IMG/VR virus record: IMGVR_UViG_3300009093_000036
Location: 124,001 to 188,000 of that record
Length of the DNA: 64,000 nt
DNA from: a virus
Direction: 5' to 3' (one strand)
The notes under the pieces are model-generated. The model was not told the DNA's origin, made no database searches, and saw nothing but the letters and a program-made list of their open reading frames with translations. Positions 15,892 through 50,732 of this stretch are shown here, one piece after another. The stretch's first letter is position 1, and every line of letters starts with the position of its first letter. Position numbers and translations under genes: made by a program.

Positions 15892-18060
15892 CTACATGCC
15901 CGCCGGCGACGGCGGACGCATACCCGGCTGGACGCCAGCGTACCGAAGGGGAGTGGGTGTGGCGGTCGCCAGATGCTGGACGGCATCCACCCCTTTCTTT
16001 GCCCCCACGAGACCAGCACCGACAGCACCGACGGCACCAAGACCCAGCGCGAGACGGCCGTAGCCGCTGTGCTTGACCTGGTAGTCAGGATTCGCGAGAG
16101 CTCGGCCGAGCTCGGCGGCGGCCTTCAGGCTGCCCTGGTTGCCGATCATGTCACTCTGCCCTGCGACGATCGGCTCCTGAACCTTCGGCGCCGTCACACG
16201 TGCGATCGGCTTCGCGAGGGCGTGCGTGATGCCGGGGGCGACCAGACCCAGACCACCGATCTCGACGGCCGGATGATGCAGGGCGTGAGCGAGACCTTCG
16301 GCGACGGTGTGGCCCTCAGCAGCAAGAGCACCCATCCGCCCACCACGCAGCATCAGACGCTTCAGTCCGCCGGCGGCAGCATCGGCGAGGTACGGTGACG
16401 CGAGCGTCGCGATGCCGACGTCGTCAATGCGATCGGCGATGCGTCCAGTGCGGGGGTCCTCCGAGGCCGTCTTGCCCGGCATCGGACCGACGCCGCCGTA
16501 CTGGTGCGGCACCGCCATGTACCCCATCAAGCCCGTGCCGGCAGCCGCACCGACGAGACCGGCACGGTTCAGCCCCTGGTTCATCACGTTGTGCTGCTGT
16601 TCGAGACGGCCTGCTGCCTGCCGGAGCGCCTCTGCCTGCCCACCACGCGATGCCGCCACCGATTGAGCGAGCTCGGGCTTCATGGTCGCTGCCGGCGTCG
16701 AGGAGCCACCCCAGGCCGTCGGGGACATGACCTGCTTCTGCTGGGTGTTGAGGGCGATGCCTCCCGCCCCGCCTGCCCCGCCCGCGGCCCCGGGCTTGGC
16801 GGCGAGGGTGCCACGACCCAGCGCCGGCGGAGCTCCGGCGTGCATCGTCCCAGCGAGAGCGGGATCCGCGATCGTCTTGCCGGCGATCTGGTGAGCCTCC
16901 CGAGCCGCGATCTCCGCCTGACCCGCCTGAGCTCGCAGCGTGTTGAGCTGATGAGCCCCCTGCGTCTTGAGCGCCGAGATGCCAGCGCCGCCGGCGGCAC
17001 CAAGCCCAGCCCCAACGAGAGCTCCGCGAAGAGCTCCCTGTTGCCGCTGGCCTGGATCGGCGTGCATCAGACCGCCGAGACCGCCGGCGACGGCGCCGAT
17101 GCCTGCACCCACCCCAGCATGACCGAGGTGACTGATCGCTGTTGGCGAGACCGCGAGCGCGATCTTCTGGCCATGGTTGTCCTTGTCGAGCACCTTCATC
17201 TTGAACTCCTCGAAGGGCATCTCCTTCATCGAACCGAAGAAGCGGGGGTCGTTGTACTGCTTGAGGTAGGCAGCCTTCGCCTCCTCTGCGGAGTCGAACC
17301 CGAGCATCACCTTCTGCTCGTCGAACTTCGTCCAGGCGACACCGTCCTTCTTGATCTCACCCTCGGGCTTCTTCATCTGGTCGACCAAGAAGACCTTGTC
17401 CGACTCCTCGTTGGGGCCGAGGTAGACATCGACGTGGTCGCCATCGGTGCCCTTCGTCATACGGATGTAGCCGTAGTCGAAGTGCATGAAGGTGGAGCCC
17501 TTCTCCTTGCCGTGCGGGTCGTACCAGGAGCGCTTGCTGCCCTTGCGGTTCTCGATCGCGATGTCGAGGCCCTTGAACATCCGCTCGCCGTGGAGCTTGA
17601 AGTTCGAGAGCTTCGCCCCATCAGCGAAGCGGATGTCGTCCGTCGCTGACTTCTTCTCGGCGCGGTCCCGCTCCTGCTTCTCCTTGAGCTTCTTGGGGTT
17701 GTCCATGAAGTACTGGATCATGTCCCCGCACGACTTCTTCTCGCTCTCACCTTCGACCTTCTTCAGGCGGATGTAGTAGTCGGGCCGCTCGCGCAGATGA
17801 TCGATCGCGATCTGCTTGGCGACGGCGGGATGATCGGTGTGCTCCATCTCCACCTTCTCGCCGGCGTGGAGCTGAACCTTCGGTACCCCAGAGCCACTGT
17901 CGTGGGCGTGAGCGAGCAGGCCGCTCTTCTTGACGTGCTCGGGCAACGCCTTGATGTCCTTCGTCTCGTGAGCCCAGGCGATCGCAGTTCCCTTGGGGAG
18001 CTTCCCCTCCGCTTCCATCGCGAAGAACTTGCGCTGCTGTGCCTTGCTCTTGAAGGGCAT
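15892..18060 (-). CDS. polyvalent virion protein with InPase-like domain
   Basis: 722 residues. The N-terminus MPFKSKAQQRKFFAM is common at the start of phage capsid-associated proteins. Around 165-290 is a domain matching the phage inorganic-pyrophosphatase-like family of polyvalent proteins: FMHFDYGYIRMTKGTDGDHVDV with a DGD, then LVDQMKK, FDEQKVMLGFDSAEEAK and FEEFKMKV. The remainder is Gly/Ala-rich with glycine-zipper helices, as in internal or ejected proteins. KTAS appears near residue 520. Polyvalent proteins are usually packaged and injected, so a role at early infection is inferred. It is flanked by plus-strand genes on both sides. Confidence 0.7.
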   Translation of the reverse strand: MPFKSKAQQRKFFAMEAEGKLPKGTAIAWAHETKDIKALPEHVKKSGLLAHAHDSGSGVPKVQLHAGEKVEMEHTDHPAVAKQIAIDHLRERPDYYIRLKKVEGESEKKSCGDMIQYFMDNPKKLKEKQERDRAEKKSATDDIRFADGAKLSNFKLHGERMFKGLDIAIENRKGSKRSWYDPHGKEKGSTFMHFDYGYIRMTKGTDGDHVDVYLGPNEESDKVFLVDQMKKPEGEIKKDGVAWTKFDEQKVMLGFDSAEEAKAAYLKQYNDPRFFGSMKEMPFEEFKMKVLDKDNHGQKIALAVSPTAISHLGHAGVGAGIGAVAGGLGGLMHADPGQRQQGALRGALVGAGLGAAGGAGISALKTQGAHQLNTLRAQAGQAEIAAREAHQIAGKTIADPALAGTMHAGAPPALGRGTLAAKPGAAGGAGGAGGIALNTQQKQVMSPTAWGGSSTPAATMKPELAQSVAASRGGQAEALRQAAGRLEQQHNVMNQGLNRAGLVGAAAGTGLMGYMAVPHQYGGVGPMPGKTASEDPRTGRIADRIDDVGIATLASPYLADAAAGGLKRLMLRGGRMGALAAEGHTVAEGLAHALHHPAVEIGGLGLVAPGITHALAKPIARVTAPKVQEPIVAGQSDMIGNQGSLKAAAELGRALANPDYQVKHSGYGRLALGLGAVGAVGAGLVGAKKGVDAVQHLATATPTPLRYAGVQPGMRPPSPAGM

Positions 18061-22202: not shown

Positions 22203-25200
22203 TCAGACGATCAGCGTGATTTTGATCTCGTTGCAAGGATAGAAAACGCCCACGTCGATGTCGAGGAGCAGCGAGTCCGGCTGATCCGGGTTCTGCACGA
22301 GGCGCGAGACGTGGAAGCTCGCGAGGACCTTCTGGACGGTCAGGAAGCTGCCGAGCCCGTCGAGCGTCGTGCTGATCGAGCTCTGGAGGTTCTGCGAGAT
22401 GTTGAACCGGCCGATGTAGTTCCGCAGACCGCCGCGGAGGAACTTCGCCGTGAAGTCGAGCGCCGTGAGGATCGAGAACTCGCGCTCTTCGATCGTGTCG
22501 ATGGCGGACGTGAGCTGGTGCCGCGTCTGGATGGACTGGCCTGCGGCTTCCTGGAACATGTTCCAGAGGCCACCGCCGTCCATGATGCGGTACTGGATCT
22601 CACCGTAGCGATCGCTCGCACCGATGAGGCCCGTGAAGCCCTTGATGCCGACGTTCGTGAGCGGATCGGACGGGTTCTTCGACGCCGTCTTGCCGGCGAG
22701 CGCGGCGCAGACGTAGAAGCCCTCGATCTCCTGCTCTAGCCCATCGACCGTCGCCTTCGCCTTGTCGGGCGTGACGAAGATCATGCGGCGGTTCTTGTAG
22801 CCCTGCGGGATCGCGGCGTACGCGATCGCTTCCTCGGTGAGGTCCGCGAGCACGGTGCCGCGGATGAAGACCGAGAAGGGACGATCGACGATCGGGTTGG
22901 CGAACGCCGGCGAGCTGCCAGCGAAATAGAACCCGTCGGCGTTGTCCTCGCTGGTGCCGGCCGCGAGAGCGCCCGTGCTGACCGTGACGATCGAACCCGC
23001 CACCCCGGTGATGAGGTAGTTGTTCGTGTCGTCTTCGAGCTTGAGCACGATGCGATCGTCGATGGTGTACGGCGGGGCCGGGTGACCAGCCGCAGCGAGG
23101 AGAGCCGGCAGGTTCGCGAGACCCGTGTCGAACGTCGACACGCCGCCCGTGCTGTTGCCGAGCGAGCCCGAGCCGATGAGGTTGTTCGCCGTGCGCTCCG
23201 GACGGGGCGGGTTGTTGAAGACGACGCGTTCGAGACCGACCTCGGGGTCGCTCATCGCCGTGACGTGGGCATCCGCGAGGTCCGAGACCGTCGCGTCGTG
23301 CGTGAGCTGCGCGATCGCGTACACGTCCTTCGACTCGATGAACGTGTAGGCCTCCGCCCACGCCCCGAGCGTGCCGAAGGGCTCCGTCACCGTCGCCTCG
23401 CCGATGCCGAGACCGAACGTCTCCAGGCCCGAGGCGTTGAGCATCGCGAAGTACATGCCGAGGCCCAGGGGGTTCTCGGGGTTGATGGGCGACAGCTTCG
23501 ACTCCAGCGTGGTGAGGTCACCGATGCGGAGCAGGTTGCTGTTCGTGCCGGCGGCGGACACGTCGCGACGAAGCGCCGTGTAGCCGAGGTACAAGCCCAG
23601 GTCGACCGCGGCCGTGGGGGTGCCGTCAGGAGCACGGAAGATCTCGTGCTTCACGACGACTTCGCCAGAGGTCGCGTCGACCTGGAGATCGGCACTCGGA
23701 CGAGTCGTCGTCTGCGGACCCGTGAGACCGAGCGCGCGGATGTAGAAGTTGACCCACGTGGCGGTCAACTGGTACTCCGTGTCGAGACGAAGCCGCGTCA
23801 CGACGCCCGCCGGAGCGACCTCCGTGATGAGGCCGAGACGGAGACCGTTGCCGTAGACCTCGTCGCCCACCATCGGAGCGTACGGGTTGCCGACGTAGCG
23901 GTTCGCCGTGAGGCCGAGCGTGGTGAGTGCCGTCGAGAGCGAGTTGATGCGGATCACGCTCTCCTCGCCGCCCTCGGTCGTGGGCGAGCGGAGGACGAGC
24001 TTGTTCGCCCCGTTCAGCGACGCGACCGCAGCGCCTGCGGGCACCTGCCACTTCGTGTTGATGGCAGCCACTAGCGCCGCAGCGTTCGCGATCGTCGGAC
24101 CGATGATGAGCGTCTGCTCCGCCTCGCCGTCGATGCTCATGATGAGCGACTGACCGGGCGTCGCGAACGGGCCGCCGGCACCGTACGTGATGGTCGTGAG
24201 GTCCACGGTGGCCTGGACGCGAGCACGGCTGCGACGGCCTGCCGCGTAGTCGCCGACGACCAGGCCGAGGTTGCCGGACGTCGCGGTGCCGCCCGTGCGC
24301 TCGAACGACGAGCCCGGGCCGGTCGTGCCGGAGGTGAGGACGAGGTGGTTGCTCGCCCCGAGCGACGCGACGGTCGTACCGAAGGCCGCGTTGATCTGCG
24401 AGATGATGTCCGCCGCCGAGGCTGCCGCCGAGAAGTTGACGGTGACCGGGCCGGCGCCGTCCTTCGAGAAGATGGCGCTCGTGCTGTTCAGCGCGGAGAA
24501 CGTCGTCGAGAGGTCGGCGGTACCCGTGAGGACCGCGGCACCATCCGTGAAGTTCTGGCCGGCGAACGTGAGGTACGGCGAGAGGTTGTCGCCATCACCA
24601 TCGTTGAAGACGCTGACCGCCGCGGTCGCACCACGCAGGAACGTGGTCGTGCGGCTGACCTCGACGAAGTTGCCGCCACCGATCGCCGCGAACACGCGCA
24701 CCGTCGAGAAGTCGAGCGTGAGCTCGTCGAGGTTGCTGCGCGGATCCGGGTAGTTCTCCAGGCCGACGTCGACCTTGAAGTTGTTGTTGTAGCCGCCACG
24801 GCCCGTCTCCGTGTAGCCACCACCACGCAAGTTCAGCACGGTGAGGCCGGTGCCGCCCATGATCGAGAGCGTCGCGAACGGACCCGTGGCCACCGAGTGG
24901 AGAACGATGCGCTGCTGCGCACCGCTCGTCTCGATCGCGACGAGCAATCCGACGATGTCGAGCGAGTCGATGTACGCCTTCACCTCTTCGACCGTCGGGT
25001 TCGCCGGCGAAGCCGGGAACGTGATGGTCTGGGTGGGGCCGTTGTTCACGCTGAGCTGGAGGGTGAGGCCCCCGAGCGTCGCGTACTGGAACGGCGTCGA
25101 GACGTACGGGAACTCGATCCGTGCCGGCAGCGCGAGCAGCGCCTGGCTGTTCAGCACGCCGGTGTCCAGGACAGCCTGAACGACCTCCTTCGCGACACCC

Positions 25201-25304
25201 ATCACGCAGGCGGGCATCGTGGGAACGAAGATCGTGGGGGTGACCTGACGGAACTCGGTGAAAACCTTGACGCCCGGCCGGGGAAGCATGTTCGGAGTGG
25301 TCAT
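22203..25304 (-). CDS. tail sheath protein with inserted IN-like domains
   Basis: 1033 residues, about twice the usual length of a sheath subunit. The C-terminal ~150 residues have sheath character: YGEIQYRIMDGGGLWNMFQE, EREFSILTALDFTAKFLRGG, and a final strand LLLDIDVGVFYPCNEIKI. Residues ~75-160, 260-345 and 370-480 hold repeats with the IN-domain pattern of flagellar hook proteins (DIISQINAAFG, LVAAINTKW, each followed by a vasl...nkLvLrS strand). These would decorate the outer surface of the tail. KTAS occurs in LAGKTASKNPS. Strong start AAGGAGATTCTCGCG-ATG. Confidence 0.85.
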   Translation of the reverse strand: MTTPNMLPRPGVKVFTEFRQVTPTIFVPTMPACVMGVAKEVVQAVLDTGVLNSQALLALPARIEFPYVSTPFQYATLGGLTLQLSVNNGPTQTITFPASPANPTVEEVKAYIDSLDIVGLLVAIETSGAQQRIVLHSVATGPFATLSIMGGTGLTVLNLRGGGYTETGRGGYNNNFKVDVGLENYPDPRSNLDELTLDFSTVRVFAAIGGGNFVEVSRTTTFLRGATAAVSVFNDGDGDNLSPYLTFAGQNFTDGAAVLTGTADLSTTFSALNSTSAIFSKDGAGPVTVNFSAAASAADIISQINAAFGTTVASLGASNHLVLTSGTTGPGSSFERTGGTATSGNLGLVVGDYAAGRRSRARVQATVDLTTITYGAGGPFATPGQSLIMSIDGEAEQTLIIGPTIANAAALVAAINTKWQVPAGAAVASLNGANKLVLRSPTTEGGEESVIRINSLSTALTTLGLTANRYVGNPYAPMVGDEVYGNGLRLGLITEVAPAGVVTRLRLDTEYQLTATWVNFYIRALGLTGPQTTTRPSADLQVDATSGEVVVKHEIFRAPDGTPTAAVDLGLYLGYTALRRDVSAAGTNSNLLRIGDLTTLESKLSPINPENPLGLGMYFAMLNASGLETFGLGIGEATVTEPFGTLGAWAEAYTFIESKDVYAIAQLTHDATVSDLADAHVTAMSDPEVGLERVVFNNPPRPERTANNLIGSGSLGNSTGGVSTFDTGLANLPALLAAAGHPAPPYTIDDRIVLKLEDDTNNYLITGVAGSIVTVSTGALAAGTSEDNADGFYFAGSSPAFANPIVDRPFSVFIRGTVLADLTEEAIAYAAIPQGYKNRRMIFVTPDKAKATVDGLEQEIEGFYVCAALAGKTASKNPSDPLTNVGIKGFTGLIGASDRYGEIQYRIMDGGGLWNMFQEAAGQSIQTRHQLTSAIDTIEEREFSILTALDFTAKFLRGGLRNYIGRFNISQNLQSSISTTLDGLGSFLTVQKVLASFHVSRLVQNPDQPDSLLLDIDVGVFYPCNEIKITLIV

Positions 25305-27913: not shown

Positions 27914-28809
27914 CAGCGAGAAGATCCCACGGCAGCGCCCATCTGTCGTGCGTCATACCGGGCCTTCTGCACTGCGGACTCCCCGGCCTTTGCCAGGCGC
28001 TTGGCTGCCGAGCTCTGGCGAAGCGCTTCGAGGGTCTCCGTGACGCTCTTCGGCGTCAGCGTGTTCGGCGGGTTGAACGCCGCCGTCTTCTTGGGGAGCA
28101 GCCCCGCTTGCTGGGCGAGCTGTTCGAGGAGCTCGGGAACGGTGACTCCGTTCACCTTGAGCTTCTTGGTCTTCTTCACCGGATCGGCAGCACCGAACAC
28201 GTTGGGCGTGCCGTAGCCGACCTCGTTCCGGGGCTGGTTCTTCATCCGCCCCATCGAGACTTCGACTTCCTTCGGCAAGGACTGCGAGTACTCACGCTCG
28301 ATCGCAGCAGCCAGCTTGCCGAACGGCATCTGGGAGAGGTGATCGAGGACGCTTGCACTTCCGATGACCGGAGCTCCGTGCTGGACGGCGCCCTGGATGA
28401 CCTTCTGTGGGCCGAGCTGCTGAGCAGCATGCTGGAGCACTGACCCTTGAGAGAACGCCATCGTGGGCGTCTTCTTGGCGACGACTCCTGCCACCTGCGA
28501 GGCCGCAGCTTGGGCCTTCTGAGCGGAGAGCGTCAGCGCATGCTGAGCGGCCTGCGTCCCTGCCGACGACCCCAAGTTCTTGTAGTAGCCGGCGAGCTCG
28601 GCGACTGCGGCACGACGAGCAGGATCGACACCCTGCTGTGCGATGCGAGCAGCCTGGTTGACGTGCTTGCCGACCTGACCCGCTTCGAGCCCGATGGTGC
28701 TCATCAGGTTCGACTTCTTGACCTTGCCGAGGGCAGTCCACGGCGCACGCCGTACGTGAGGACGTACGGCCACCGCGGCTGCCTTCGTGATGAGGTCGAG
28801 GTCGAACAT
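27913..28809 (-). CDS. alanine-rich virion-block protein
   Basis: 298 residues. The start MFDLDLITKAAAV overlaps the upstream stop (TGATG) and follows GAGGAAG. It is almost wholly helical and Ala/Gln-rich (SAGTQAAQHALTLSAQKAQ). A positive patch (DPVKKTKKLKVNG) and KKTAAFNPP lie toward the C-terminus. A scaffold-like or internal virion protein is likely. No motif gives a definite function. Confidence 0.6.
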   Translation of the reverse strand: MFDLDLITKAAAVAVRPHVRRAPWTALGKVKKSNLMSTIGLEAGQVGKHVNQAARIAQQGVDPARRAAVAELAGYYKNLGSSAGTQAAQHALTLSAQKAQAAASQVAGVVAKKTPTMAFSQGSVLQHAAQQLGPQKVIQGAVQHGAPVIGSASVLDHLSQMPFGKLAAAIEREYSQSLPKEVEVSMGRMKNQPRNEVGYGTPNVFGAADPVKKTKKLKVNGVTVPELLEQLAQQAGLLPKKTAAFNPPNTLTPKSVTETLEALRQSSAAKRLAKAGESAVQKARYDARQMGAAVGSSR

Positions 28810-29750
28810 CACTTCCTCAGCGAGGACTGGATGAGCTCGGCGAGGCTGGCGGTCTTCCCGTCCTGCACCTGCCGAAGGGCACGACCACCCTCGACTGCGA
28901 TCGGAGCGCCGTACGCGGCACCGATCATCGAGCCGATGCCACGAGCGAAGCCGGGGTCGTGCATCTTGAGCACCTTCGCGGCGCCGTGTCCGACGAGAGC
29001 ACCCATCGCGGCACCGCCGCCGGCACCCGCGGCGCCCATGAGAGCGCCCTGGCCACCGTCAGCCAGCGAACCACCGAGACCGCCACCGATCGCGGAGCCG
29101 ATCATCGACTTGGGGGTGAAGTCCAGCGAGTGACCGAAGCCGGGGGAGCCGAGGAAGTGACCGGCGGTCGCGCCGATGCTCGCCCTGTCGAAGCGCTTCT
29201 TCTGATCCGTCTGCTCCTTGGTCTTCTCCTTGGCCGCGAACTTCGTGATGAGCGAAGCGAGCTTGCCAGCGGCCGGCTCCTGCACCGGAGCACCGCCCGC
29301 AGCGCCGCCACCGATCTCCGCACCGAGCTGACCGCCGGCTGCGGGATCGGGGGTACCGATCACGGCCTGCCCCGGAGGAGTCGGCTGACCGACACCCATC
29401 ACCTTCATCTTGTGAAGCTGGATGGTGAGCCCGAGCTTCTGGAGACGCATCGCCTCGCGCTCGTCGCACTCCTTCGAGTAGTCGTACATCGGCTGCTGAG
29501 CAGACCGAGCCATGCGCTCCTGGAGATGGCGCTGCTCCATCGCGAGCTCCTGCTCGCAGAGAGCGATCGCCTGCGGAGCGAGGGGCGAGCCATCGAAGGC
29601 TTGGAGGAACTTCTCGTCCATGGCGCCCTCGTGGAAGGCACGCTTGAACGCGAAGCGGTCGTACGCGTTCGGTTCGACCACCTCGATCGGAGTGGCCGAG
29701 GCCGTCTTCGCGCCGAAGGTGCTGATCAAGAATGCGTTGAGCTCGTCCAT
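28809..29750 (-). CDS. virion-block protein with KTAS motifs and glycine-zipper core
   Basis: 313 residues from MDELNAFLISTFGAKTAS after AAGGAGCAACC. The N-terminal ~130 residues form a charged helical region with PNAYDRFAFKRAFHEGAM. A Gly/Ala-rich core follows (SAIGGGLGGSLADGGQ, GAAGAGGGAAMGALVGHG, GIGSMIGAAYG). KTAS occurs twice, near the N-terminus (AKTASATP) and near the C-terminus (GKTASLAEL). These bracket the protein and would suit processing near both ends. Internal or ejected virion protein is the best guess. Confidence 0.6.
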   Translation of the reverse strand: MDELNAFLISTFGAKTASATPIEVVEPNAYDRFAFKRAFHEGAMDEKFLQAFDGSPLAPQAIALCEQELAMEQRHLQERMARSAQQPMYDYSKECDEREAMRLQKLGLTIQLHKMKVMGVGQPTPPGQAVIGTPDPAAGGQLGAEIGGGAAGGAPVQEPAAGKLASLITKFAAKEKTKEQTDQKKRFDRASIGATAGHFLGSPGFGHSLDFTPKSMIGSAIGGGLGGSLADGGQGALMGAAGAGGGAAMGALVGHGAAKVLKMHDPGFARGIGSMIGAAYGAPIAVEGGRALRQVQDGKTASLAELIQSSLRK

Positions 29751-29760
29751 GGTTGCTCCT

Positions 29761-32280
29761 TCAGTATTGCGACGGATCGTTGGGGGAAGCGGTGAGCGCC
29801 TTCGTACCGAGGATGCCGGTACCGAGGCCAGCGACGAACGCCGGCAGGTGCTCGCGAAGATGCGGGCCGAGAGCCTGAACACCGCGATGTGCAGAGGCGA
29901 CGCCGTGGTTGACGGCGGCGTTCACCGCAGCTTCGACAGTGTCGCCGGCACGATGCGAGCTCGTCTTCGCACGACGGATCCCCTCGGCCACGGACTCCGC
30001 CATGTCGGACTTGCGCTGAGCGCGATCGTGCATGCCCTTGGCGGCGAGGAGGCCTCCGCCGGCGAGAGCCGCGGCGCCCGCGTTCGGAGCGTGCTTCGCA
30101 AAAGCCTCGGTCGCCGCCTCGCCCATGCCGTGAGCGATGCTGCGTCCGGTCGCACGACCCACGGAGTCGACGACTCCCGCGCTCTTGTCGCGGTTCGCCA
30201 TCGCACCGCCGGCGAGAGCGAGGCCACCAGCCGCCGCACCCGCCGCCGGCAGGTACGGACGAGCCTTCTGGATGAGAGCTCCGAGGCCGCTCGCAGCAGG
30301 CGCAGCAGCCGCACCGACGGCGCCACGCACACCACGCTTGCCCACGATCGTCGCGACGTCGACCGAGGTTTTCACCGTGACGTGCGTGCCGGGCTTGCCG
30401 CCCTTGTCGTCGCCCTTGGCCTCACCACCGCCGGAGTCACCCGACGGCTGCTGTTCCTGGCCTCCTGCGGCCTGCTCCTGACCCCCCGGTGCAGAACCCT
30501 GGGAATCCTGCCCCGGGGTTCCTTCTTGACCGGGAGCGACGCCCGTCTGTGCAGCGAGCTCGGCCTCCGCCTGCTGCTGCGGAGTGGCCGGCATCCCCTG
30601 AGCGGCGAGGTCGCTGACCGTGGCTGCGGACTCGGCGACCGGGTCCTGCATCACGAAGTTGGCGAGCTCCTGACGCATCTGATTGACGCGCATGCCGAGC
30701 TGCATCTTCTGGATGGAGTGATCCGCCGCACGGCCTTCCGCTTCCGCGGCCTGCTGCGTCGCCATCATCGCCTGCTGCGAGTCCATCTGGGACTGCTGCG
30801 TGAGCTGCTCGACCTGCTGCTGGGCCTGCATGAGCTGCTGCTGGGCAGCCTGGGCTTCCGCCTGCGCCTGCTGAGCTGCCTGCGAGGCCTGCATCGCGAC
30901 GGTCTTGGCGTGCGAAGCCTCGGCCATCGCCTGCGCCGCACCGAGCTGCTGCTCACGCTCGATGTACGCCTCGGGGGAGTCGGCGTTCGGCATCACCATA
31001 TCCGACTTCTTCTCCTGCTCCTTGTGCTTCTTGAAGAAGTCGGTGCCGTTCGACAGCACGGCACCTCCGACGTAGGCCGCGGACTTCGCCTTCTCGATGA
31101 GGTCGACCAGCGACACCGGAGCCTCGACCGGCTTGACCGAGACGTCCTTCGGCGACTTCGTGTTGGGCGACGTCTTCTGGACGTCCGGCTTCTCGGAGCG
31201 CAGAGCCGCGGGCGACAGAGGCGTCAGCTCCACACGGACCTGGTCCTTGTGGTGGATGACGTCCATGTCCTTGTTGAGGTCGGCGATGCGCTTCTGGAGG
31301 AAGCCCTTCATCGCCGCCTTCTTCTCGTGCTCGGCGTGGATGCCGGGGAACTTCTTCTCCACGGCGGCACGCACCTTCGCCTTCTCGTCGGAGGTGCCGT
31401 GCATGCCCACCATCCCGAGAGCAGCGAGAGCGTGATCCTTGTCATGGATGGGGTACTTGCGTTCCGCGGGGAACACGAAGTTGCTGTCCTTGATCTCGGA
31501 CCGGGCGCCGGCGGTGAGGTCGGCGGCCTTCTTGTCCTTCTCCTTGCCGGAGTAGGAGGGGTCCATGCCGGCACGACGGAGCTGCTCGTACGTCGCGACC
31601 GCAGCGGCCTTCGGCTGCTCGGGCGTCGTCTCGACCTGCACCTTCGTCGACGCCGGCTGCGCCTGAGCGGGCTGCTCGGTCTCGGCCGGAGCTTCGGCCG
31701 TGGGCATGGCAGGCAGAGCCGTGGGCTCGACGAGCTGCCAGAGCTCGTCCTGGTGCTCCTCCTCGCGCTGGAGGAACTGCTCGATCGTGAACTTCATGGG
31801 CGTGTCGCCGCAGATGCTGTGGAGCTGCTTCCACAGCGTGAGCCCCATCTGCTCGACGACGATCATCGCCTGCACGATCTCGTTCGGATCGTGAAGCGGC
31901 TCCGGCGGCGGGTACGGCGGGATCGAGACACCACCGGGCGACAGCACGCTCATGCGGCGCAGCAGGTAGTCGGCATGCTCCAGCTCGTGGCTGGCGTGCT
32001 CCATGAACTCCTCCGCGATCCCCTCGTGCGAGAGACCACGCATCATGTTCGCGTAGTAGACGTAGTACGTCTGCGTCTTGAACTCGTTCGAGACCATCTG
32101 CGCGATGAGCTCGACGGCCTGCGGAAGCGGAACGAGGAACGGGCCCTCGACCTCGCCGCCAGGTGCCGGCATCTCGCCCTCTGCCATCTTCCGGATCCCG
32201 GCGATGAACAGCGAGCCGTCGACGAGCCCGATGGGGTTCGTCGGCTTGAAGGACATGATCAGGGTCTTGTCGAGGTCCAT
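29761..32280 (-). CDS. virion-block protein with N-terminal ferritin-like di-iron domain
   Basis: 839 residues from the ATG at 32280, chosen because AGGGG stands eight bases before it. Residues ~50-185 are a four-helix ferritin-like domain. All six di-iron ligands of the bacterioferritin pattern are in place: E66, E99-x-x-H102, E143, E173-x-x-H176. After it come a proline-rich linker, a charged segment with YPIHDKDHALAALG, a long Gln/Ala coiled coil (about 425-545), and a Gly/Ala-rich C-terminus with AKTSSHRAGD. The domain could bind iron or protect against oxidation, or have been recruited as a structural bundle. The neighbours suggest it is packaged in the virion. This fusion is unusual. 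Confidence 0.75.
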   Translation of the reverse strand: MDLDKTLIMSFKPTNPIGLVDGSLFIAGIRKMAEGEMPAPGGEVEGPFLVPLPQAVELIAQMVSNEFKTQTYYVYYANMMRGLSHEGIAEEFMEHASHELEHADYLLRRMSVLSPGGVSIPPYPPPEPLHDPNEIVQAMIVVEQMGLTLWKQLHSICGDTPMKFTIEQFLQREEEHQDELWQLVEPTALPAMPTAEAPAETEQPAQAQPASTKVQVETTPEQPKAAAVATYEQLRRAGMDPSYSGKEKDKKAADLTAGARSEIKDSNFVFPAERKYPIHDKDHALAALGMVGMHGTSDEKAKVRAAVEKKFPGIHAEHEKKAAMKGFLQKRIADLNKDMDVIHHKDQVRVELTPLSPAALRSEKPDVQKTSPNTKSPKDVSVKPVEAPVSLVDLIEKAKSAAYVGGAVLSNGTDFFKKHKEQEKKSDMVMPNADSPEAYIEREQQLGAAQAMAEASHAKTVAMQASQAAQQAQAEAQAAQQQLMQAQQQVEQLTQQSQMDSQQAMMATQQAAEAEGRAADHSIQKMQLGMRVNQMRQELANFVMQDPVAESAATVSDLAAQGMPATPQQQAEAELAAQTGVAPGQEGTPGQDSQGSAPGGQEQAAGGQEQQPSGDSGGGEAKGDDKGGKPGTHVTVKTSVDVATIVGKRGVRGAVGAAAAPAASGLGALIQKARPYLPAAGAAAGGLALAGGAMANRDKSAGVVDSVGRATGRSIAHGMGEAATEAFAKHAPNAGAAALAGGGLLAAKGMHDRAQRKSDMAESVAEGIRRAKTSSHRAGDTVEAAVNAAVNHGVASAHRGVQALGPHLREHLPAFVAGLGTGILGTKALTASPNDPSQY

Positions 32281-32285
32281 GATGC

Positions 32286-32765
32286 TCACCCCTGGATGAA
32301 GGCGACGTACTGACGGCTGAGAGGCTCGATGAGGATCTCGATGATGTCGGTCGGGTTGGTGGGCGACTGCGTCAGCTTTGGGTCCGCCGTCGTCGTCGAG
32401 AACCCGAAGTACGAGTTGGCCGTCCCCGTTTCGAGCAGAACGACGGGTGTCGTGTCGTTCCAGAGAACGAGGACCTGCCCACCGTTGTCGTCGGACTTCA
32501 TGAGATGGGCGACCACGGAACCCACCGCAGCGTTGATCTCTGAGACGATGTGGTGGAGATCGAGGTTGGCGGAGAACGTGACCGTCCCCGCCGGAGTAGC
32601 GAAGTTCAGGGTGAGGCCGCCGACCGGGTGCTTGTAGAGGTCACCCGTCACAGCGAGCGGACCTTGGTCACGCCCCACCGAGAGGTTCGTCTTGCTGGAC
32701 ACCAGCCCGTTCAGGAGACGGGAGAGCTGCTCCGGATCCTTGGCCTTGATGAAAGAGATCGTCAT
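32286..32765 (-). CDS. stand-alone IN-like virion-block protein
   Basis: 159 residues. The body (GLTLNFATPAGTVTFSANLD, then HHIVSEINAAVGSVVAHLM, VLVLWNDTTPVVLLE and ANSYFGFS) follows the same strand-helix-strand pattern as the IN-like domains in the tail sheath. They may share ancestry. It could be an outer decoration or a baseplate part. Its stop lies just before the ferritin-fusion start. Confidence 0.55.
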   Translation of the reverse strand: MTISFIKAKDPEQLSRLLNGLVSSKTNLSVGRDQGPLAVTGDLYKHPVGGLTLNFATPAGTVTFSANLDLHHIVSEINAAVGSVVAHLMKSDDNGGQVLVLWNDTTPVVLLETGTANSYFGFSTTTADPKLTQSPTNPTDIIEILIEPLSRQYVAFIQG

Positions 32766-32792: not shown

Positions 32793-33302
32793 TCACCAGA
32801 ACCCGAGGGCGTAGAGCCCGAAGTAGTCGGAGTGGACTCCGCTCGGACCAAGGTCGAGGAGTTGTTCGATGTTCAGCGCGGTCTTCACCTGGCGCTTGTT
32901 CTGCTCGTACCCGGCTTGGAAGAGCTGGAGCATGGACTGGATGATCGGAGCCTTGTCGTTGATCGCCACCGACATGCCGCCATCCGAGAACGGCAAGTAG
33001 TTGCGGGCGTGGAGGATCATCACGCTCTGTAGAAGCGTGATGACCGTCCCACGGACCATCAGGTTCTGGAGGCTCCTCGATGCGAGCTCGTTCAGGGCGT
33101 ACCCGGTGAAGGGCGGCGTCCCGTTGAAGTCGGACAGGAAGTCCTGCGTCGCCCAGACGATCATGCGATCCGAGCTCTCCTCCCCACGGATGAGGAGGTT
33201 GAGCTCGGCGAAGTCGCGCATGAAGAGCCGGACCGACTCGATGTGACCTCGAAGCACCGATCGCGGATCGAAAGGCTGTCCGAGTCCCTGAACGAACGGC
33301 AT
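32793..33302 (-). CDS. hypothetical virion-block protein
   Basis: 169 residues starting MPFVQGLGQPFDPRSVLRGH. Helical, with LFMRDFAELNLLIRGEESSDR and ALNELASRSLQNLMVRGTV. No conserved motif is known to me. It overlaps the upstream gene by one base. Small proteins of this kind next to the capsid gene may be head-completion or assembly factors. Confidence 0.55.
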   Translation of the reverse strand: MPFVQGLGQPFDPRSVLRGHIESVRLFMRDFAELNLLIRGEESSDRMIVWATQDFLSDFNGTPPFTGYALNELASRSLQNLMVRGTVITLLQSVMILHARNYLPFSDGGMSVAINDKAPIIQSMLQLFQAGYEQNKRQVKTALNIEQLLDLGPSGVHSDYFGLYALGFW

Positions 33303-34489: not shown

Positions 34490-35602
34490 TCAGAAGGAGA
34501 CGACGCCCGGGAAGAACGTGCGATCCGCGGCGCGGTTGTTCGGCGCCCCGAGATCCTCCTCCACCTTCGGCGAGACCGAGGAGAGGATCGAGTCCGTGTT
34601 CAGCGACGTCGCGTCACCGGAGTAGAGCTCCAGCTTGCGGACCGACGCCACGTTGACGATCGACATGCCGACGTCCTTCCACGCGACGAACTTGATCAGG
34701 TTGATCACCTTGTCGATGTAGAACTTGACGTTGTTCAGGATGTAGAAGCGACCCAGGAACTCCGGCGACGTGTACGCGTACACGTTGCCCGGACGGAGGA
34801 TGTCCGTCTTGATGGTCCGGATCAGCTTCTTGCCGAGCAGGGTGTTGAACTGCCAGCCCTGAACGGTGGTCTCGCTCTGCACCTTCGAGCCCTGGTCCTC
34901 GATCGTCCACTGGAGGACGTCGTCGAGATCCTTGCTCGTGATGAGGATGAGCTCGCACTCCAAGCGGTTGCCGTCGAGTAGCTTCATCAGGTTGACGATG
35001 TCCGGGCGCTGGATCGGACGAACGATCGCGTCGTTCGTCGAAGCCGCACGCGCGAGCTCGCCCTTGATGACCGAGAACTCCACCGGCGGCGTGCCGCTCT
35101 GGAGACCCGTCGCGTTGAGCGCCGTCGTCGAGCCGTTGGCCTCGGTCTGGAGCGCCTGCACCGCGGCCTCGGAGTAGATCAGGAACTGACGGTCCTGGAT
35201 CTCGCCGATGTCGCGGATCGAGTTCTGCTCGACCACCTTCCCGAGCGGGTACGGGTAAGCCAGGAACTCCTGCTCCGGCTTCTGGTACATCTCGCTCATG
35301 ATGGTGATGAACGGCACCTCGACGCGCTCGCCGCGGAGCAGCCGAGCCGAGGGCTCGCCACGGAAGGTGACCACCATGGCGCGCGAACGCGGCTCCAGGT
35401 GCTCGATCTTCACGAGCGAGTCGTGGTTGACCGAGATCTGGCAGTCGCTGCGCGTGACGGTCTGGGGCGGGAGGACCCGCTCCAGGAACGACGCCTCGCG
35501 CAGGCGATCTCGGATGTAGCCCCCGACCTCCGCCGCGAGCTTCGTCTTCGCGTCGGGGTTCGAGAGGTGCTGAATGGTCAGCTCCTTTGCATCGTGCAGC
35601 AT
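34490..35602 (-). CDS. probable major capsid protein
   Basis: 370 residues. The segment YIRDRLREASFLERVLPPQT, SVNHDSLVKIEHLEPRSRAM, and later PSARLLRGERVEVPFITIMS has the feel of HK97-fold capsid proteins, with an N-terminal arm, E-loop and long helix. The C-terminal half is beta-rich (LGRFYILNNVKFYIDKVI). Its neighbours are decoration-like protein, scaffold-like protein and protease, the usual capsid gene group. It lies at the right distance from the hairpin attenuator. No catalytic motif is expected or found. I rate this as the best capsid candidate in the window. Confidence 0.7.
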   Translation of the reverse strand: MLHDAKELTIQHLSNPDAKTKLAAEVGGYIRDRLREASFLERVLPPQTVTRSDCQISVNHDSLVKIEHLEPRSRAMVVTFRGEPSARLLRGERVEVPFITIMSEMYQKPEQEFLAYPYPLGKVVEQNSIRDIGEIQDRQFLIYSEAAVQALQTEANGSTTALNATGLQSGTPPVEFSVIKGELARAASTNDAIVRPIQRPDIVNLMKLLDGNRLECELILITSKDLDDVLQWTIEDQGSKVQSETTVQGWQFNTLLGKKLIRTIKTDILRPGNVYAYTSPEFLGRFYILNNVKFYIDKVINLIKFVAWKDVGMSIVNVASVRKLELYSGDATSLNTDSILSSVSPKVEEDLGAPNNRAADRTFFPGVVSF

Positions 35603-36167: not shown

Positions 36168-36572
36168 TCAGCCAATCGCCTGAACGAGCGCGTCCAGGTG
36201 ATTGTAGTTCGCCGAGGAACCGAGCTCCCCGGACAACGTCGTCGACCCCGCACCGTGCGAAGACGAGGTCTCCTCGTCGGTGCGGAGCGTCGCCAGCTTG
36301 AAGCCGCCTGCGCTCATCTCGACGGCGGCTTCGATGCCGTCGAGCTTCGAGGGATCGACGGCGCTGAGCATCGCGACCTTCTCGGTCAGCGACAGAGCGG
36401 GCTCCAGGCCGCGCTCGTGCATCCGCATCGCGAGCTTGTGCACGTGAAGCTCACGCTCCACGGCCGTGTTGGTGGCCTGGAGCTCCAGGTTGTCGGACGC
36501 GAGCTTCCGGATCGTCTTGGCGCCCTCCAGGAGGACGGCCGGCGAATCGGAAGCGAGCTTCGTGAGGTCCAT
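36168..36572 (-). CDS. small helical virion-block protein
   Basis: 134 residues. The N-terminal half is a leucine-rich coiled coil (KLASDNLELQATNTAVERELHVHKLAMRM). The C-terminal half is low-complexity with many Ser, Gly and Thr. It starts MDLTKLASDSPAVLL. Position between scaffold-like and decoration-like genes suggests a capsid-assembly part. Confidence 0.55.
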   Translation of the reverse strand: MDLTKLASDSPAVLLEGAKTIRKLASDNLELQATNTAVERELHVHKLAMRMHERGLEPALSLTEKVAMLSAVDPSKLDGIEAAVEMSAGGFKLATLRTDEETSSSHGAGSTTLSGELGSSANYNHLDALVQAIG

Positions 36573-38655: not shown

Positions 38656-40461
38656 TTACAGAGCAACCTGCACTGCGTTCCGGAGACCGGAGATGAAGTT
38701 GGTGTTCCGATTCATCGTGGAGCAGACCTCGTCACCGAGAGCGCTGAGCTTGCGGTAATCGGGGCTTGTCATCACGTACTCCACAGCAACACCAAGTTCC
38801 TCTTCGACCTCTGCCACCTTTTCGAGGTGAGCCGAAATCCAATGTACCACGGTGGATGAAGACAGGAGAAGACCCGCCAGGGAAGATGTCTTCGTCAACT
38901 CCCTGAAGTCGGGCGGGCACGCCTCGTGGTACTTGGGCATCAGATGCTCCGCCTGCTTCAGCAGAGAAGCCCGGTACCCGTTGTAGAGAGCCGCGACATC
39001 ATGAACGAAGACGGCGTCGAGTAGTTGTGGAACAGGGGCCGAAGCCGTCTTCGACATCATGCCCAGCCGGTAGTGCAGATGCGGGGCAAACGAAGAGCGA
39101 TGCTCCACGTACGGCATGAGCCTCTCGGCCAGCTTCAACGAGAAGAGCTGGGGGTCCACGGCATACCCAGTCTCGTACTCCGGCAACGACGTTTTGAACG
39201 TCATGTTGTGGTCGGCGGCCATCGACGCGACCTTCGCGTGGAACGGGTGCTCGGTGCCGACGACGCCATGGAACTCGTTCGGCTTGAGCATGATGCCCAG
39301 ACCCGCGAGTGTGGACAGCAGAGTGCGAGCACCGACCTCCTTCGAGAAGTCAGCCAGCTCTCCGAACGGGATGTCCATCTCTCCGTTGGCACAGAGCTCG
39401 ACCTTGCGAGCGATGCCACCAGGGATCTCCTTCTCCATCGCCGTCTTCTTGATGTTCCTGATGTGCTCTCGGGTAAGAAGGGTTCCAGGGCCTGCCTTCT
39501 CACTGGCCGTCTTCGACATGTCTGAGGCCCCCTTCAAGAGCTCACCGATGCTCTGCGGACGCTGACGAGCTCCGGCACGACTGCCGCTTGCACTCATGAA
39601 GAACATGACTCGTGCAGTACGGTCCGCACCGATCCACACGAAGCTGATGTCGAAGAAGCGCGGGTAGTCGTTGTAGACGAAGACCTTCTGGCCGTCGTCG
39701 AGCACCTGACCGCGCTGCTTGACCATGTGGTCGCAGTAGTCGGCCTTCGTGATCGCAAGACCACGAATGGGCTTCACGGTCCGGTGGTACACGAGGATGG
39801 CGACGCCGGGGCTGGCGTGACGCTTCGGGTCGTACGCCTTCTTCGCCTTCTTGACGGTCTCCCAGTCCGTGCAGATCGAGCAGAAGTCGAAAGGCACCTT
39901 GCAGCCCATCGAGACATCGACTCGATCACCCCGGCCGATCCTATCAAGAATCGCAGAGTGACCCCGTTGCATGGCGAGGTCGACATCGACCCGCATCACG
40001 AGCTCGATGCGCTTCTGCGCCTCGTTGCGTGCGACGAAAACGACGTCACCGAAGCCCAGCGACGTGGGGTCCGTGTTCTTGTGGTGGGCGTAGACGGTCG
40101 CGCCGTAGTAGCTGGGGTAGCCGAAGGGCCAGCTCTTCGCGATGCGAGCCTGAACGACGGGATCCGTCTCCCAGTTCTCGTACTCGCCATGGAGGTGACA
40201 CGTCTCGGGGGCGTGCAGCAGACCGTTGAAGTCGAGGTGCGGGTTGTACCCGTAGTAGTCGACGTTCGAGTTCGGCCCGTAGTACTCCGAGTACCCCATC
40301 GCGTTCACGTGCGTGAACATGTACTTGGGGTCCGGGCGAAGACGCGAGATGAAGTCCTCGACGAGCGGCAGAGCGCCGGCCACTTTCGTCATGTGGCCGG
40401 CCTCGATGAGATGAACCGGCGGCTCGCCTTCAGCCGACGAGAACGCGCGCTTCAGCATCAT
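38656..40461 (-). CDS. probable capsid-maturation protease with long C-terminal extension
   Basis: 601 residues. Residues ~115-290 look like a prohead protease of the Ser-His type. A His pair (H126/H127) in VYAHHKNT is followed by GDVVFVARNEAQKRIELVM. Then comes ILDRIGRGDRVDVSMGCKVP, with S184 the likely nucleophile, and CSICTDWE. FFDISFVWIGADRTARVM follows, a line often found after this domain in large phages. The C-terminal ~300 residues are helical and carry KTAS twice (MSKTASEKA, MSKTASAPV) plus LTKTSSLAG, which may be self-cleavage sites. Capsid, scaffold and decoration genes are adjacent downstream. Confidence 0.6.
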   Translation of the reverse strand: MMLKRAFSSAEGEPPVHLIEAGHMTKVAGALPLVEDFISRLRPDPKYMFTHVNAMGYSEYYGPNSNVDYYGYNPHLDFNGLLHAPETCHLHGEYENWETDPVVQARIAKSWPFGYPSYYGATVYAHHKNTDPTSLGFGDVVFVARNEAQKRIELVMRVDVDLAMQRGHSAILDRIGRGDRVDVSMGCKVPFDFCSICTDWETVKKAKKAYDPKRHASPGVAILVYHRTVKPIRGLAITKADYCDHMVKQRGQVLDDGQKVFVYNDYPRFFDISFVWIGADRTARVMFFMSASGSRAGARQRPQSIGELLKGASDMSKTASEKAGPGTLLTREHIRNIKKTAMEKEIPGGIARKVELCANGEMDIPFGELADFSKEVGARTLLSTLAGLGIMLKPNEFHGVVGTEHPFHAKVASMAADHNMTFKTSLPEYETGYAVDPQLFSLKLAERLMPYVEHRSSFAPHLHYRLGMMSKTASAPVPQLLDAVFVHDVAALYNGYRASLLKQAEHLMPKYHEACPPDFRELTKTSSLAGLLLSSSTVVHWISAHLEKVAEVEEELGVAVEYVMTSPDYRKLSALGDEVCSTMNRNTNFISGLRNAVQVAL

Positions 40462-41082: not shown

Positions 41083-41417
41083 CAGTAGTACCCTCCTCCA
41101 CCGCTACCGAAGTCGCCAGGGCGAGAACCGAAGTCCCTCGGGATGAGGGCGGACCCGACCGCGTTGCCGGCAGCACCCATCTGCTGACCGAGCCACGCCT
41201 TGCCGCGACGGGTGGGAGCGTACTGGTTGGCGGCGTGGTTGGCGACCAGAACGGGAGCTGCATAGCCCACCGTCTTGCCGATCGCCTCCGAGCCGAGGTT
41301 CTTGCCGATGGCTCCCCCCACGCTTCCAGCGGCCTGGAACACCTTGCCGGTAGCCTTGCCTACGGTCTTCGCAGCCTCGGCAAGGCCGGCCAGCTTCAGA
41401 AGCGTGATGGGGTTCAT
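41082..41417 (-). CDS. small Gly/Ala-rich virion-block protein
   Basis: 111 residues, beginning MNPITLLKLAGLAEAAKTV. Glycine-zipper-like helices (AAGSVGGAIGKNLGSEAIGK) and a Gly/Ser/Tyr-rich tail follow. It overlaps both neighbours, so it is part of the translated array. It resembles the small proteins at 26,674 and 26,154. Confidence 0.55.
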   Translation of the reverse strand: MNPITLLKLAGLAEAAKTVGKATGKVFQAAGSVGGAIGKNLGSEAIGKTVGYAAPVLVANHAANQYAPTRRGKAWLGQQMGAAGNAVGSALIPRDFGSRPGDFGSGGGGYY

Positions 41418-42220
41418 CGGTGACTCCGCAGGAAGTCCGACACGCGGACGAGCTCGCTCTCGACTTCACGAAGCGCCTCGCAGGCGACCTCGTAGTCGTG
41501 AGCATGCTTCACGAACGCAGCGAACGTCGAGCGGATCGGGTGACCTTCCGAGATCACCCGGCTTGCCGTCTTCACGCCGTGAGGCGCACGAGTGGGGTTG
41601 AGCGCCGAGAGGAGCTCGACGGCGTGCTTGGGGGAAACGCTGCCCCAGGCTCGCTCGAAGTCCTCGAAGAACGCCCCATCGAGACAGGCGCTCTTCACGA
41701 GCCCTGCCAGCTTCTGGACGTCCTCGGTGACGTAGTAGCTGCTCACGGTGACCCGCTCTGCGAGGTCGACGTGCGTAGCCTGGAGCTGCTCGCGCAGCTC
41801 GCTGATGTCGGCGAGGGCTGCCCGCTTCTCCGAGACGTCGTGGACGCCCGACTGCGACGAGACGCTCGCGGTCTTGCGAACGGGCTCCATCGAGTACTCC
41901 GACATGCTGCGTGCACGTGCCGGGGCCGAGGCCGCCTTGAGGCGCTCGATGACGGCGCTCGCATCGGCCGGACCGCCGTCGAGCTCGACCACACGCATGG
42001 ACGGGTCCATGGAGGCGAACTTCCGGTGGAAGGCCTCGTGATTCGCGGCCTCGACGACGCGACGGATCTGCTGCTCGTTGAGCTTCGTCATGCCGATCGA
42101 ACGCACTGCGGCGTCCGTCAGGGACATGCCCGACGTCTCCGCAGTCTGAGCGGCCGTCTTGCCGAGCTGCGTGAGCTGCTCTGCCGAAGTCGTGTGCCAG
42201 GTGTTTGCTTCGAGGTTCAT
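41414..42220 (-). CDS. first gene of the main structural block; KTAS-rich helical protein
   Basis: 268 residues. The start MNLEANTWHTTSAEQ is followed by KTAAQTAETSGMSL. The pattern LNEQQIRRVVEAANHEAFHRKF, then RVVELDGGPADA is common in helical phage head proteins. KTAS occurs twice (RKTASVSSQ, VKTASRVIS). The remainder is coiled coil. It is divergent from the plus-strand gene at 42,301. No CTATCA motif stands upstream, unlike the non-structural units. Confidence 0.6.
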   Translation of the reverse strand: MNLEANTWHTTSAEQLTQLGKTAAQTAETSGMSLTDAAVRSIGMTKLNEQQIRRVVEAANHEAFHRKFASMDPSMRVVELDGGPADASAVIERLKAASAPARARSMSEYSMEPVRKTASVSSQSGVHDVSEKRAALADISELREQLQATHVDLAERVTVSSYYVTEDVQKLAGLVKSACLDGAFFEDFERAWGSVSPKHAVELLSALNPTRAPHGVKTASRVISEGHPIRSTFAAFVKHAHDYEVACEALREVESELVRVSDFLRSHR

Positions 42221-48617: not shown

Positions 48618-50687
48618 TCACGATGCGGCGGCAGCCGACGGAGTCCCGTCGGTCTCTGCGGTGCGCATCGCGAGGCCCTTGAGGCCCTGGATGACCTCGT
48701 CGAGAGCACGAGCCGCACGAGCCGCCGCCGTCTCCGGAACCTCGGTCATGCCGAGGCGAGAGAACAGCGTGAGCTCGCAGACGGTGTTGAGCGCTCGATC
48801 GAGGTACGGCAGCTTGCCGACGTACACCCGCAGGTTCTCGGGGTTCAGGAAGTTCAGCGAGAGGACGCTGTCGACGGTCTGGATGTCGGGCAGCACCGAA
48901 GCCTCCTTGATGAGGTCCTTCCGGAGAGCGCGGACCTGGGCGACCTTCTCGGACGCCGTCTTCTCGATGTCGCGCATGAACGTCTCGACGGGGCGGACGT
49001 CGTGGACACCGATCACGTGCTCGGTGCGCATCGTGTGCGACGCGTGCTTGATGATCTCGTGCGCCTTCAGCGGAGCCATGCCTGCCGCACAGAGCACGAA
49101 GACCGCATCGTCGATCGACGCGACCTTCGGGGCCGTCGCCTCCAAGCCGGGCAGCTTGTGGAAGGTGAGGTCGATGATGTCCCCGCCGTGACGCAGAGCG
49201 ATGAACGGCTGCGCGAAGGCGGACGTCTTGACGGCTTCGAGGTCGTCGACGAGCGGGACGGCCGTCTCCTTGTTCAGCGCGAGGAAGCGCGCCGAAGCAG
49301 GCAGCGAGCACTCCTCGTCGCCCGGCATCATGTGCTGGAGGCCGGGCACGAGGCGGACGACGTGCGGCTGGCCGGTGAGGGTGGTGACGTGCACGAGGTC
49401 TCCGCCGTCCATCGAGGCTTCACGTCCCTCGATCTTGAACGGCACGGTCGCCTCGATGCCGCTCGGGGTCACGACGTAGAAGAGACCCGAACCCGCCGGC
49501 TTGTCCTCGGGGAGCCCCATCGTGGCGTCGGAGATCTTCGCTCCGACGATCGAGCCCTGGACCGCAGCCGTCGCGCCGTTCGTGAACACGGCCATGGGGA
49601 CACGAGTCCCATCGAAGTCGACGAGCGAGGGGAGAACCCAGCCCATCATCTCCTGGCCGTCGATGTTGCGGACACGATAGACGCCGGGCTTCTCGATGAC
49701 CTCCCAGCGATCGTTCGTCGTGTCGAGCGGAGCCGTGTCCTTCGCGGGCTCGGAGATCGTGACGGTCCCCTCCGTGTCGACCTTCTTCGTGATGTCGGGG
49801 CCGGCGAGCTTGAGCATCTGCCCGCGATCGATGTCGTCGCGGTTGATGCCGAAGATCGAGCGCGACGCCGTCTTCATCCAGTACGTCCCACGGATCTCGT
49901 CCCAGCCGAACTGAGCGACTTCGACCGGAGCGTAGCTGGCCGCCTTGTCCATGAGGAGGTCGGCATCCCCTTCCGTGAGGAGGCGGCCGTCGAAGCTGGC
50001 CAAGTGCGACATGACCGCGAGGAAGGCCGGGTTCTGCTGAAGCTGCGGCTCCAGCCCCATCGACGAGATCTTCTCGCCGAGCGCATCCAGGTCGAGCTGC
50101 GACAGCGTCGGGGCGATGTGGTGGAGCAGCGACTCCTCGACGGCGAGGGAGGCCTGCTTCATGCCCGGGCCGTAGACGTAGCCGACGTTGTCTCCCGAGC
50201 CTGCGGAGAAGCCCGAGGTCGGGGAGTTCGAGGCGCGGCCCGGCGGGTAGAACATCGAGTAGAGGCTCTGGTCTCCCGAGTCGTCCGTCATCATGTCGAA
50301 CGTGTTCGGACGGAACAGCGCCTCACGAAGGCGGATGCCGTTGAGCGGGTACACCTTCTTGTCCTGCGTCATCACGATGTCGAGCGGGCAGAGCTCGGTG
50401 TTCTTGATGATGACGGGGATCAGCGCCTTCTTCGACGTCGGCTGCTCGTTGCCGGCCATCGAGAGTGCGGAGTCGGTCTGCCCCGAGATGACGATGACAC
50501 CCAAGGCGAAGCCCTGTTCGTCATCCTGCCGCAGCATCACGACCTGCGGGTTGTACTCGGAAGCCTCCGGCACCTGGCGGAAGAGCTCTTGGAGGATCTG
50601 CGGCCCCCACTTCGCCGCATCTTCGTCGAGCGGGACGGCAGCGACCTTGTCCTGGAAGATGGGGGCGACGTTCGTGAAGAGGTCCAT
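48618..50687 (-). CDS. large KTAS-bearing virion-block protein
   Basis: 689 residues. I start at MDLFTNVAPIFQDK, where TTAGGA is nine bases upstream. The N-terminal ~280 residues are mostly helical (PIFQDKVAAVPLDEDAAKWGP). A beta-rich middle follows (WEVIEKPGVYRVRNIDGQEMM, VVTPSGIEATVPFKIEGREAS). A helical C-terminus comes last (PVETFMRDIEKTASEKVAQVR). KTAS occurs twice (MKTASRSIF, EKTASEKV), plus VKTSAFA and MKQASL. No named family is recognised. The neighbours (spike, RNA polymerase) suggest a baseplate, tail or internal protein. Confidence 0.6.
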   Translation of the reverse strand: MDLFTNVAPIFQDKVAAVPLDEDAAKWGPQILQELFRQVPEASEYNPQVVMLRQDDEQGFALGVIVISGQTDSALSMAGNEQPTSKKALIPVIIKNTELCPLDIVMTQDKKVYPLNGIRLREALFRPNTFDMMTDDSGDQSLYSMFYPPGRASNSPTSGFSAGSGDNVGYVYGPGMKQASLAVEESLLHHIAPTLSQLDLDALGEKISSMGLEPQLQQNPAFLAVMSHLASFDGRLLTEGDADLLMDKAASYAPVEVAQFGWDEIRGTYWMKTASRSIFGINRDDIDRGQMLKLAGPDITKKVDTEGTVTISEPAKDTAPLDTTNDRWEVIEKPGVYRVRNIDGQEMMGWVLPSLVDFDGTRVPMAVFTNGATAAVQGSIVGAKISDATMGLPEDKPAGSGLFYVVTPSGIEATVPFKIEGREASMDGGDLVHVTTLTGQPHVVRLVPGLQHMMPGDEECSLPASARFLALNKETAVPLVDDLEAVKTSAFAQPFIALRHGGDIIDLTFHKLPGLEATAPKVASIDDAVFVLCAAGMAPLKAHEIIKHASHTMRTEHVIGVHDVRPVETFMRDIEKTASEKVAQVRALRKDLIKEASVLPDIQTVDSVLSLNFLNPENLRVYVGKLPYLDRALNTVCELTLFSRLGMTEVPETAAARAARALDEVIQGLKGLAMRTAETDGTPSAAAAS

Positions 50688-50732
50688 GGTGTGCATCCTA
50701 ACATCGAAAACGCGTTCAGGAGGAGAGCTGCT

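Follow-up and report, generated by a model that had tools for sequence, protein, structure and literature searches.

Does a long protein from the capsid-to-sheath interval of a phage genome genuinely contain a ferritin-like di-iron domain, and what would such a domain do there? The question is raised by a gene at positions 29761–32280 (minus strand) of the window, by which we mean the whole 64,000-nucleotide stretch analysed, corresponding to bases 124001–188000 of a virus record of 195,355 bases. Among the genes of the window are those for the terminase large subunit, the major capsid protein (MCP), a tail sheath-like protein and an RNA polymerase of fused multisubunit type, which together indicate that the source is a large tailed phage. 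The polymerase is a single 2065-residue protein (51833–58030, minus strand) comprising a beta-like portion with Rpb2 domains and a beta'-like one with Rpb1 domains, and a tmRNA gene with the tag ANDSSYAQPVLANAA is called by ARAGORN at 5513–5899 (minus strand).

Starting from the ATG at 32280, which has a good ribosome-binding sequence (GGGGTGA) close upstream, the gene encodes 839 amino acids, and the coordinates and start given in the original prediction are right. An in-frame GTG at 32289 is a possible alternative start; residues are numbered here with the ATG as 1, and the profile and structure tools began at the GTG, which raises their numbers by three. The Pfam Ferritin profile (PF00210) matches the protein with an E-value of 4e-12 and 46.7 bits (gathering cut-off 24.5) and is found at E 0.01 or better in 19 of 24 family members. 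Searches of the PDB with phmmer retrieve DPS-like proteins and bacterioferritins with the ligands in register, and a profile of the family reaches both groups at 1e-8 to 1e-10, including the bacterioferritin 4am2 at 7.6e-10. The intrasubunit ligand set of bacterioferritin (E, ExxH, E, ExxH) is present in full in the window protein, where alignment to bacterioferritins equates E66 (32083–32085) with E18, E99xxH102 (31975–31986) with E51xxH54, E143 (31852–31854) with E94 and E173xxH176 (31753–31764) with E127xxH130, all on the minus strand. Thus, the predicted order and spacing hold, and each of the six residues has its aligned counterpart among the ligands of bacterioferritins of solved structure.

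The AlphaFold model of the window domain, predicted with 24 relatives in support, contains four long helices with a pLDDT of about 97 in the helices, which are predicted to span residues 52–79, 83–113, 132–156 and 161–183. A Foldseek comparison with ferritins, proposed alongside the prediction, returned ferritin-superfamily proteins as the top structural matches of the window model, the best being a DPS-like protein and a mini-bacterioferritin. VIA-align superposes the model on the mini-bacterioferritin with a Z of 19.2 (rmsd 1.8 Å over 132 residues), on a scale where chance helical bundles reach Z up to about 13 according to the tool's note. The rubredoxin domain, a trait of rubrerythrins, was absent from a Pfam scan of the full 839-residue protein, with the Rubrerythrin profile below its cut-off. 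In addition, the heme methionine of bacterioferritin (Met52) is absent, the position being Leu in the window domain and Leu, Ile or Thr in all full-ligand members, and the cysteine pair near the metal site of DpsL/thioferritin is also missing, as the window domain has one Cys. Judged by sequence and model, the ferritin-type domain of this protein is genuine, with a complete predicted two-iron site.

The bundle itself (31720–32157, tool residues 45–190; delimited by PF00210, AlphaFold and the mini-bacterioferritin match) follows an N-terminal 'head' peptide (32170–32280) bearing an equivalent of the motif IP[LFW]..AA.FF..LK, recognized by eye and by pattern matching. Further along the chain, which is encoded throughout on the minus strand, residues 253–314 (31339–31524) form a DUF6582-like segment defined by profile matches (phrog_16160 at 1.1e-10; Pfam DUF6582 at 0.0014 only, below its cut-off). 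The Q/A-rich coiled coil (30565–31002, with a repeat array at 30793–30846) has a conserved KMQLGMRVNQMRQELAN..QDP motif at its end, and the Gly/Ala-rich C-terminus (29764–30369) includes three weakly hydrophobic 19-residue stretches that are possible membrane-active or packing segments. The earlier description of the remainder as linkers, coiled coil and glycine-rich C-terminus therefore stands, with the DUF6582-like segment having been overlooked. Polyvalent proteins are recognized by several unrelated catalytic domains within one packaged polypeptide; the 839-residue protein has the ferritin-like and DUF6582-like segments only. Elsewhere in the window, a 722-residue protein (15892–18060, minus strand) with InPase (1.2e-36) and DUF5661 domains is akin to injected polyvalent proteins, of which InPase is typical (PMC5512222).

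Between the window protein and its 89% identical orthologue in the related locus L001, dN/dS is 0.045 in the ferritin domain, 0.037 in the coiled coil and 0.044 in the DUF6582-like segment, compared with 0.30 in the linker adjacent to the ferritin domain and 0.24 in the other linker. Compared with the adjacent linker, the ferritin domain is under strong purifying selection in this pair. In the comparison with L006, the most constrained parts are once more the domain (0.34) and the coil (0.37), yet the value for the domain is not especially low. The ferritin domain is therefore a functional part of the protein.

The gene lies between those of the MCP (34490–35602, minus strand; phrog_2522 at 1.2e-8, Arash major capsid at 27%) and the tail sheath-like protein (22203–25304, minus strand; phrog_2839 at 1.3e-7). 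Directly upstream is g159 (32286–32765, minus strand), a small protein gene in a conserved position, preceded by the conserved neighbour g169 (32793–33302, minus strand), which has a homologue in Salmonella phage Arash that carries the annotation 'structural protein'. Scanning with the MCP and with g169 gave 23 and 80 related uncultured phage loci, respectively. Near relatives display the order MCP – (SAP-like) – g169 – g159 – ferritin gene – g319 – g299 – g303 – g230 – g278 – sheath, and in distant relatives a long Q/A-rich or Gly-rich protein is again encoded after g169 and a protein of roughly 155 residues. The place of the ferritin gene, just downstream of a conserved structural gene within the capsid-to-sheath interval, is kept in about 30 related uncultured phages. 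The cultured phage Arash has homologues of the MCP, g169, g303 and the sheath, and those of g169 and g303 adjoin and are both annotated 'structural protein'; a ferritin match is absent from the Arash stretch compared. Thus, the 839-residue protein is likely, from its gene position, to be a virion protein, and the fusion of a ferritin-like di-iron domain to a head/tail-block protein is supported by sequence, predicted fold and synteny, as originally proposed.

Among 50,697 records of cultured phages, no match was found to the whole protein, to its ferritin domain or to the domains of L143 and L016. Bacterial genomes yielded a single match, on a contig of a Deltaproteobacteria MAG, which we consider phage-derived because g169 is present on the same contig. 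We note that g169, for which neither Pfam nor PHROG gave a match, ranks with the most conserved of the virion-block proteins across a broad group of large phages, its homologues extending to Bacillus phage G gp165 and to Vibrio phage D69. In L001, an extra 161-residue ORF (7035–7520), absent from the window, lies between g169 and g159 and by eye looks like an HNH-type homing endonuclease. A separate observation is that, across the 27 proteins that the window encodes in its head/tail block, KTAS is the top 4-mer (10 copies versus 0.26 expected from shuffles, with a maximum of 4 in 500) and K[TL]AS occurs 13 times versus 0.67 expected. The KTAS-bearing genes, all on the minus strand, are at 28809–29768, 22203–25304, 15892–18060, 36168–36572, 38656–40461, 41414–42220 and 48618–50696, and the tetrapeptide may serve as a site for a maturation protease or as an interaction motif.

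On balance, we favour a modular head/tail-block protein in which a tethered, Fe(II)-oxidizing di-iron bundle would act near DNA without forming a storage cage, and which may be internal to the particle or ejected from it. The parts would run from a docking-like N-terminal peptide through the bacterioferritin-type bundle and the DUF6582-like segment to the long coiled coil and the Gly-rich tail. In the window lineage, the bundle would bind two irons within one subunit and turn over Fe(II) with O2 or H2O2, as bacterioferritins and DPS-like proteins do; the window domain is likely to bind iron and to act as a ferroxidase or peroxidase. Such a small tethered site would most likely clear reactive iron or peroxide near packaged or entering DNA. 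One step further removed, the coiled coil and Gly-rich tail, which we presume to be broadly similar to their counterparts in ejected phage proteins, would make the protein particle-internal or ejected, and bundles that have lost ligands would persist as spacers or contact surfaces with a structural role. Iron storage, as first suggested, is disfavoured, since nothing points to a cage, the domain sits tethered within a chain of 839 residues and the heme methionine is lacking; a cage-forming or heme-type bacterioferritin was likewise considered and is unsupported on the latter two grounds.

How far the predicted metal site matters can be judged from its relatives. The full six-ligand set is present in 13 of 28 distinct full domains (the window, L029/L001, L030/L006, L073, L077, L093, L124/L103, L126/L066, L134, L137, L141, L142 and L143), with identity to the window, and pairwise identity among the intact members compared, falling to about 46%. 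Retention in 13 members so diverged supports a functional metal site in the window lineage, where the site looks to be under selection. In the other 15 domains the set is incomplete, reading (in the order E66-E99-H102-E143-E173-H176) S/N-E-E-E-A-H in five, E-E-D-E-E-H in two and K-[EH]-x-E-D-H in three, with near-complete loss in the remaining five. Across these degenerate members, E143 and H176 are kept at 0.80 and E99 at 0.60, compared with 0.07–0.13 for E66, H102 and E173. The positions that persist correspond to the surroundings of iron site 2 in bacterioferritin, which would make a single-metal site possible in some degenerate members, a suggestion that we offer as speculation. His85, His95 and Trp150 are invariant in the intact domains and mostly lost in the degenerate ones; taken as a group, the ligand columns have relaxed further in the degenerate members than the other conserved columns have, at p 0.056, which is suggestive only.

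On an unrooted tree of the ferritin domains built without the ligand columns, the intact and degenerate labels need three changes, two of them forced by well-supported branches. By these sequences, the degenerate domains are of at least two lineages, and ancestral presence of the ligands followed by repeated loss fits the unrooted tree best. The domain of L067, with no ligand left (states AYIGVL), keeps the predicted ferritin fold, its model reaching a Z of 17.8 to the mini-bacterioferritin and 18.0 to 2qqy. Loss of ligands in 15 of 28 members implies that the activity is unnecessary to the carrier protein as such, and the metal site is, as far as sequence can tell, not essential to the family.

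The domain as a whole also comes and goes. It is present at this locus in about 30 distinct loci and missing from roughly as many, a tally that is not a frequency since the last ten loci were found using the ferritin domain itself. Several of the domain-less proteins at the same locus (L065, L070, L075, L079, L100 and L104) share the N-terminal IP[LFW]..AA.FF..LK peptide and a coiled coil ending R..M..... QDP. A coiled-coil match alone is weak evidence of orthology, because the sequence is of low complexity; what makes orthology of these domain-less proteins likely is the combination of the N-terminal peptide, the position of the gene and the Gly-rich tail at the C-terminus. In L016 and L018, the counterpart of the DUF6582-like segment sits in the following gene, indicating that modules move between neighbouring genes. 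As the domain is often without its iron site or missing in related phages, it is best described as an optional module; the protein that carries it is itself modular and probably virion-associated, and the domain is an add-on to the particle, not a core part of it. The earlier suggestion that the particle uses iron is correspondingly weakened as a general trait, with ligands lost in 15 of 28 relatives and others lacking the domain.

The main rival to the catalytic reading is a purely structural bundle, serving only as a spacer or assembly surface, in which the ligands of the window lineage are an inherited, non-catalytic relic. The ligand-free L067 model, the loss of ligands in at least two lineages and the existence of orthologues lacking the domain all speak for it. 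However, a relic would be expected to decay residue by residue, whereas 13 diverged members hold all six ligands and His85, His95 and Trp150 tend to be kept or lost along with them, which leads us to regard this explanation as rather unlikely. Still less probable, in our judgement, is a late scaffold or maturation factor absent from the finished virion, whose di-iron site protects the infected cell in the manner of stand-alone phage Dps. Gene position is no proof of virion presence, and phage Dps and Mn-catalase genes have been proposed to raise the oxidative tolerance of infected cells (PMC8008677; PMC6669764), but a domain that is fused to a coiled coil and a Gly-rich tail, and whose gene is strictly linked to head and tail genes, is unlike the product of a free metabolic gene. 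Iron carried on the particle exterior for entry through host iron uptake, the 'Ferrojan Horse' hypothesis, has a precedent in the ferritin-like gp217 found by mass spectrometry of Kuttervirus Sajous1, yet appears very improbable here, given that infection by Sajous1-type phages is independent of TonB or FeoB (PMC10892097) and that the coiled coil, Gly-rich tail and capsid-gene neighbours suggest an internal or neck protein over a tail fibre. Returning to the tethered Fe(II)-oxidizing bundle, a bolder form, in which a packaged di-iron oxidase is delivered with the genome and acts as a ferroxidase/peroxidase to shield the incoming DNA or disarm an oxidative host response, and is repeatedly gained and lost while its carrier is kept, is a tentative possibility.

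Compared with known systems, the window domain shares with bacterioferritin and mini-bacterioferritin (PDB 9qq4/9qq5, 4am2, 1bcf) the four-helix bundle and the six intrasubunit di-iron ligands in register, but is tethered in a long chain, lacks the heme methionine and carries no evidence of a 24-mer cage. DPS-like/DpsL proteins (PDB 2clb from Sulfolobus, 8w1d-f for PA4880, 2vzb for Bacteroides thioferritin), which figure among the top matches by sequence and by Foldseek, have a bacterioferritin-like intrasubunit site as well; the window domain differs in having no cysteine pair and in not being free-standing. Models of uncultured Caudovirales proteins in BFVD (A0A6J7WVS4 and A0A6J7WIS1, named Dps or prohead protease) include ferritin-fold segments, some of them long, at a sequence identity of only 15–16%. 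Stand-alone Dps and Mn-catalase genes are known from 'Gratiaviridae' and Lactobacillus phages (PMC8008677, PMC6669764); these too are phage-encoded ferritin-superfamily proteins, but separate cell-protecting enzymes, whereas that of the window is a module inside a head/tail-block protein. A further description is that of Sajous1 gp217, ferritin-like by Phyre, detected by mass spectrometry and proposed to assist entry through iron (PMC10892097), which likewise is a predicted ferritin fold in a phage protein with a proposed use of iron, but is encoded by a separate gene beside a tail-completion gene and known as a Phyre model only. In the part of the literature covered, no ferritin-like module in a conserved capsid/tail-block or phage virion protein was found beyond this suggestion.

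New, at the level of sequence, are the gene place kept in about 30 phages, the division into 13 intact and 15 degenerate domains, and the domain-less orthologues. Ferritin-type proteins of phages have so far been described as free metabolic genes that guard the infected cell; here, a bacterioferritin-type domain with a predicted di-iron site lies inside a conserved capsid/tail-block protein, is swappable, and has its metal site kept or lost by lineage. The same carrier with and without an iron site thus offers a natural comparison through which to ask if there is iron chemistry in phage particles and what purpose it serves.
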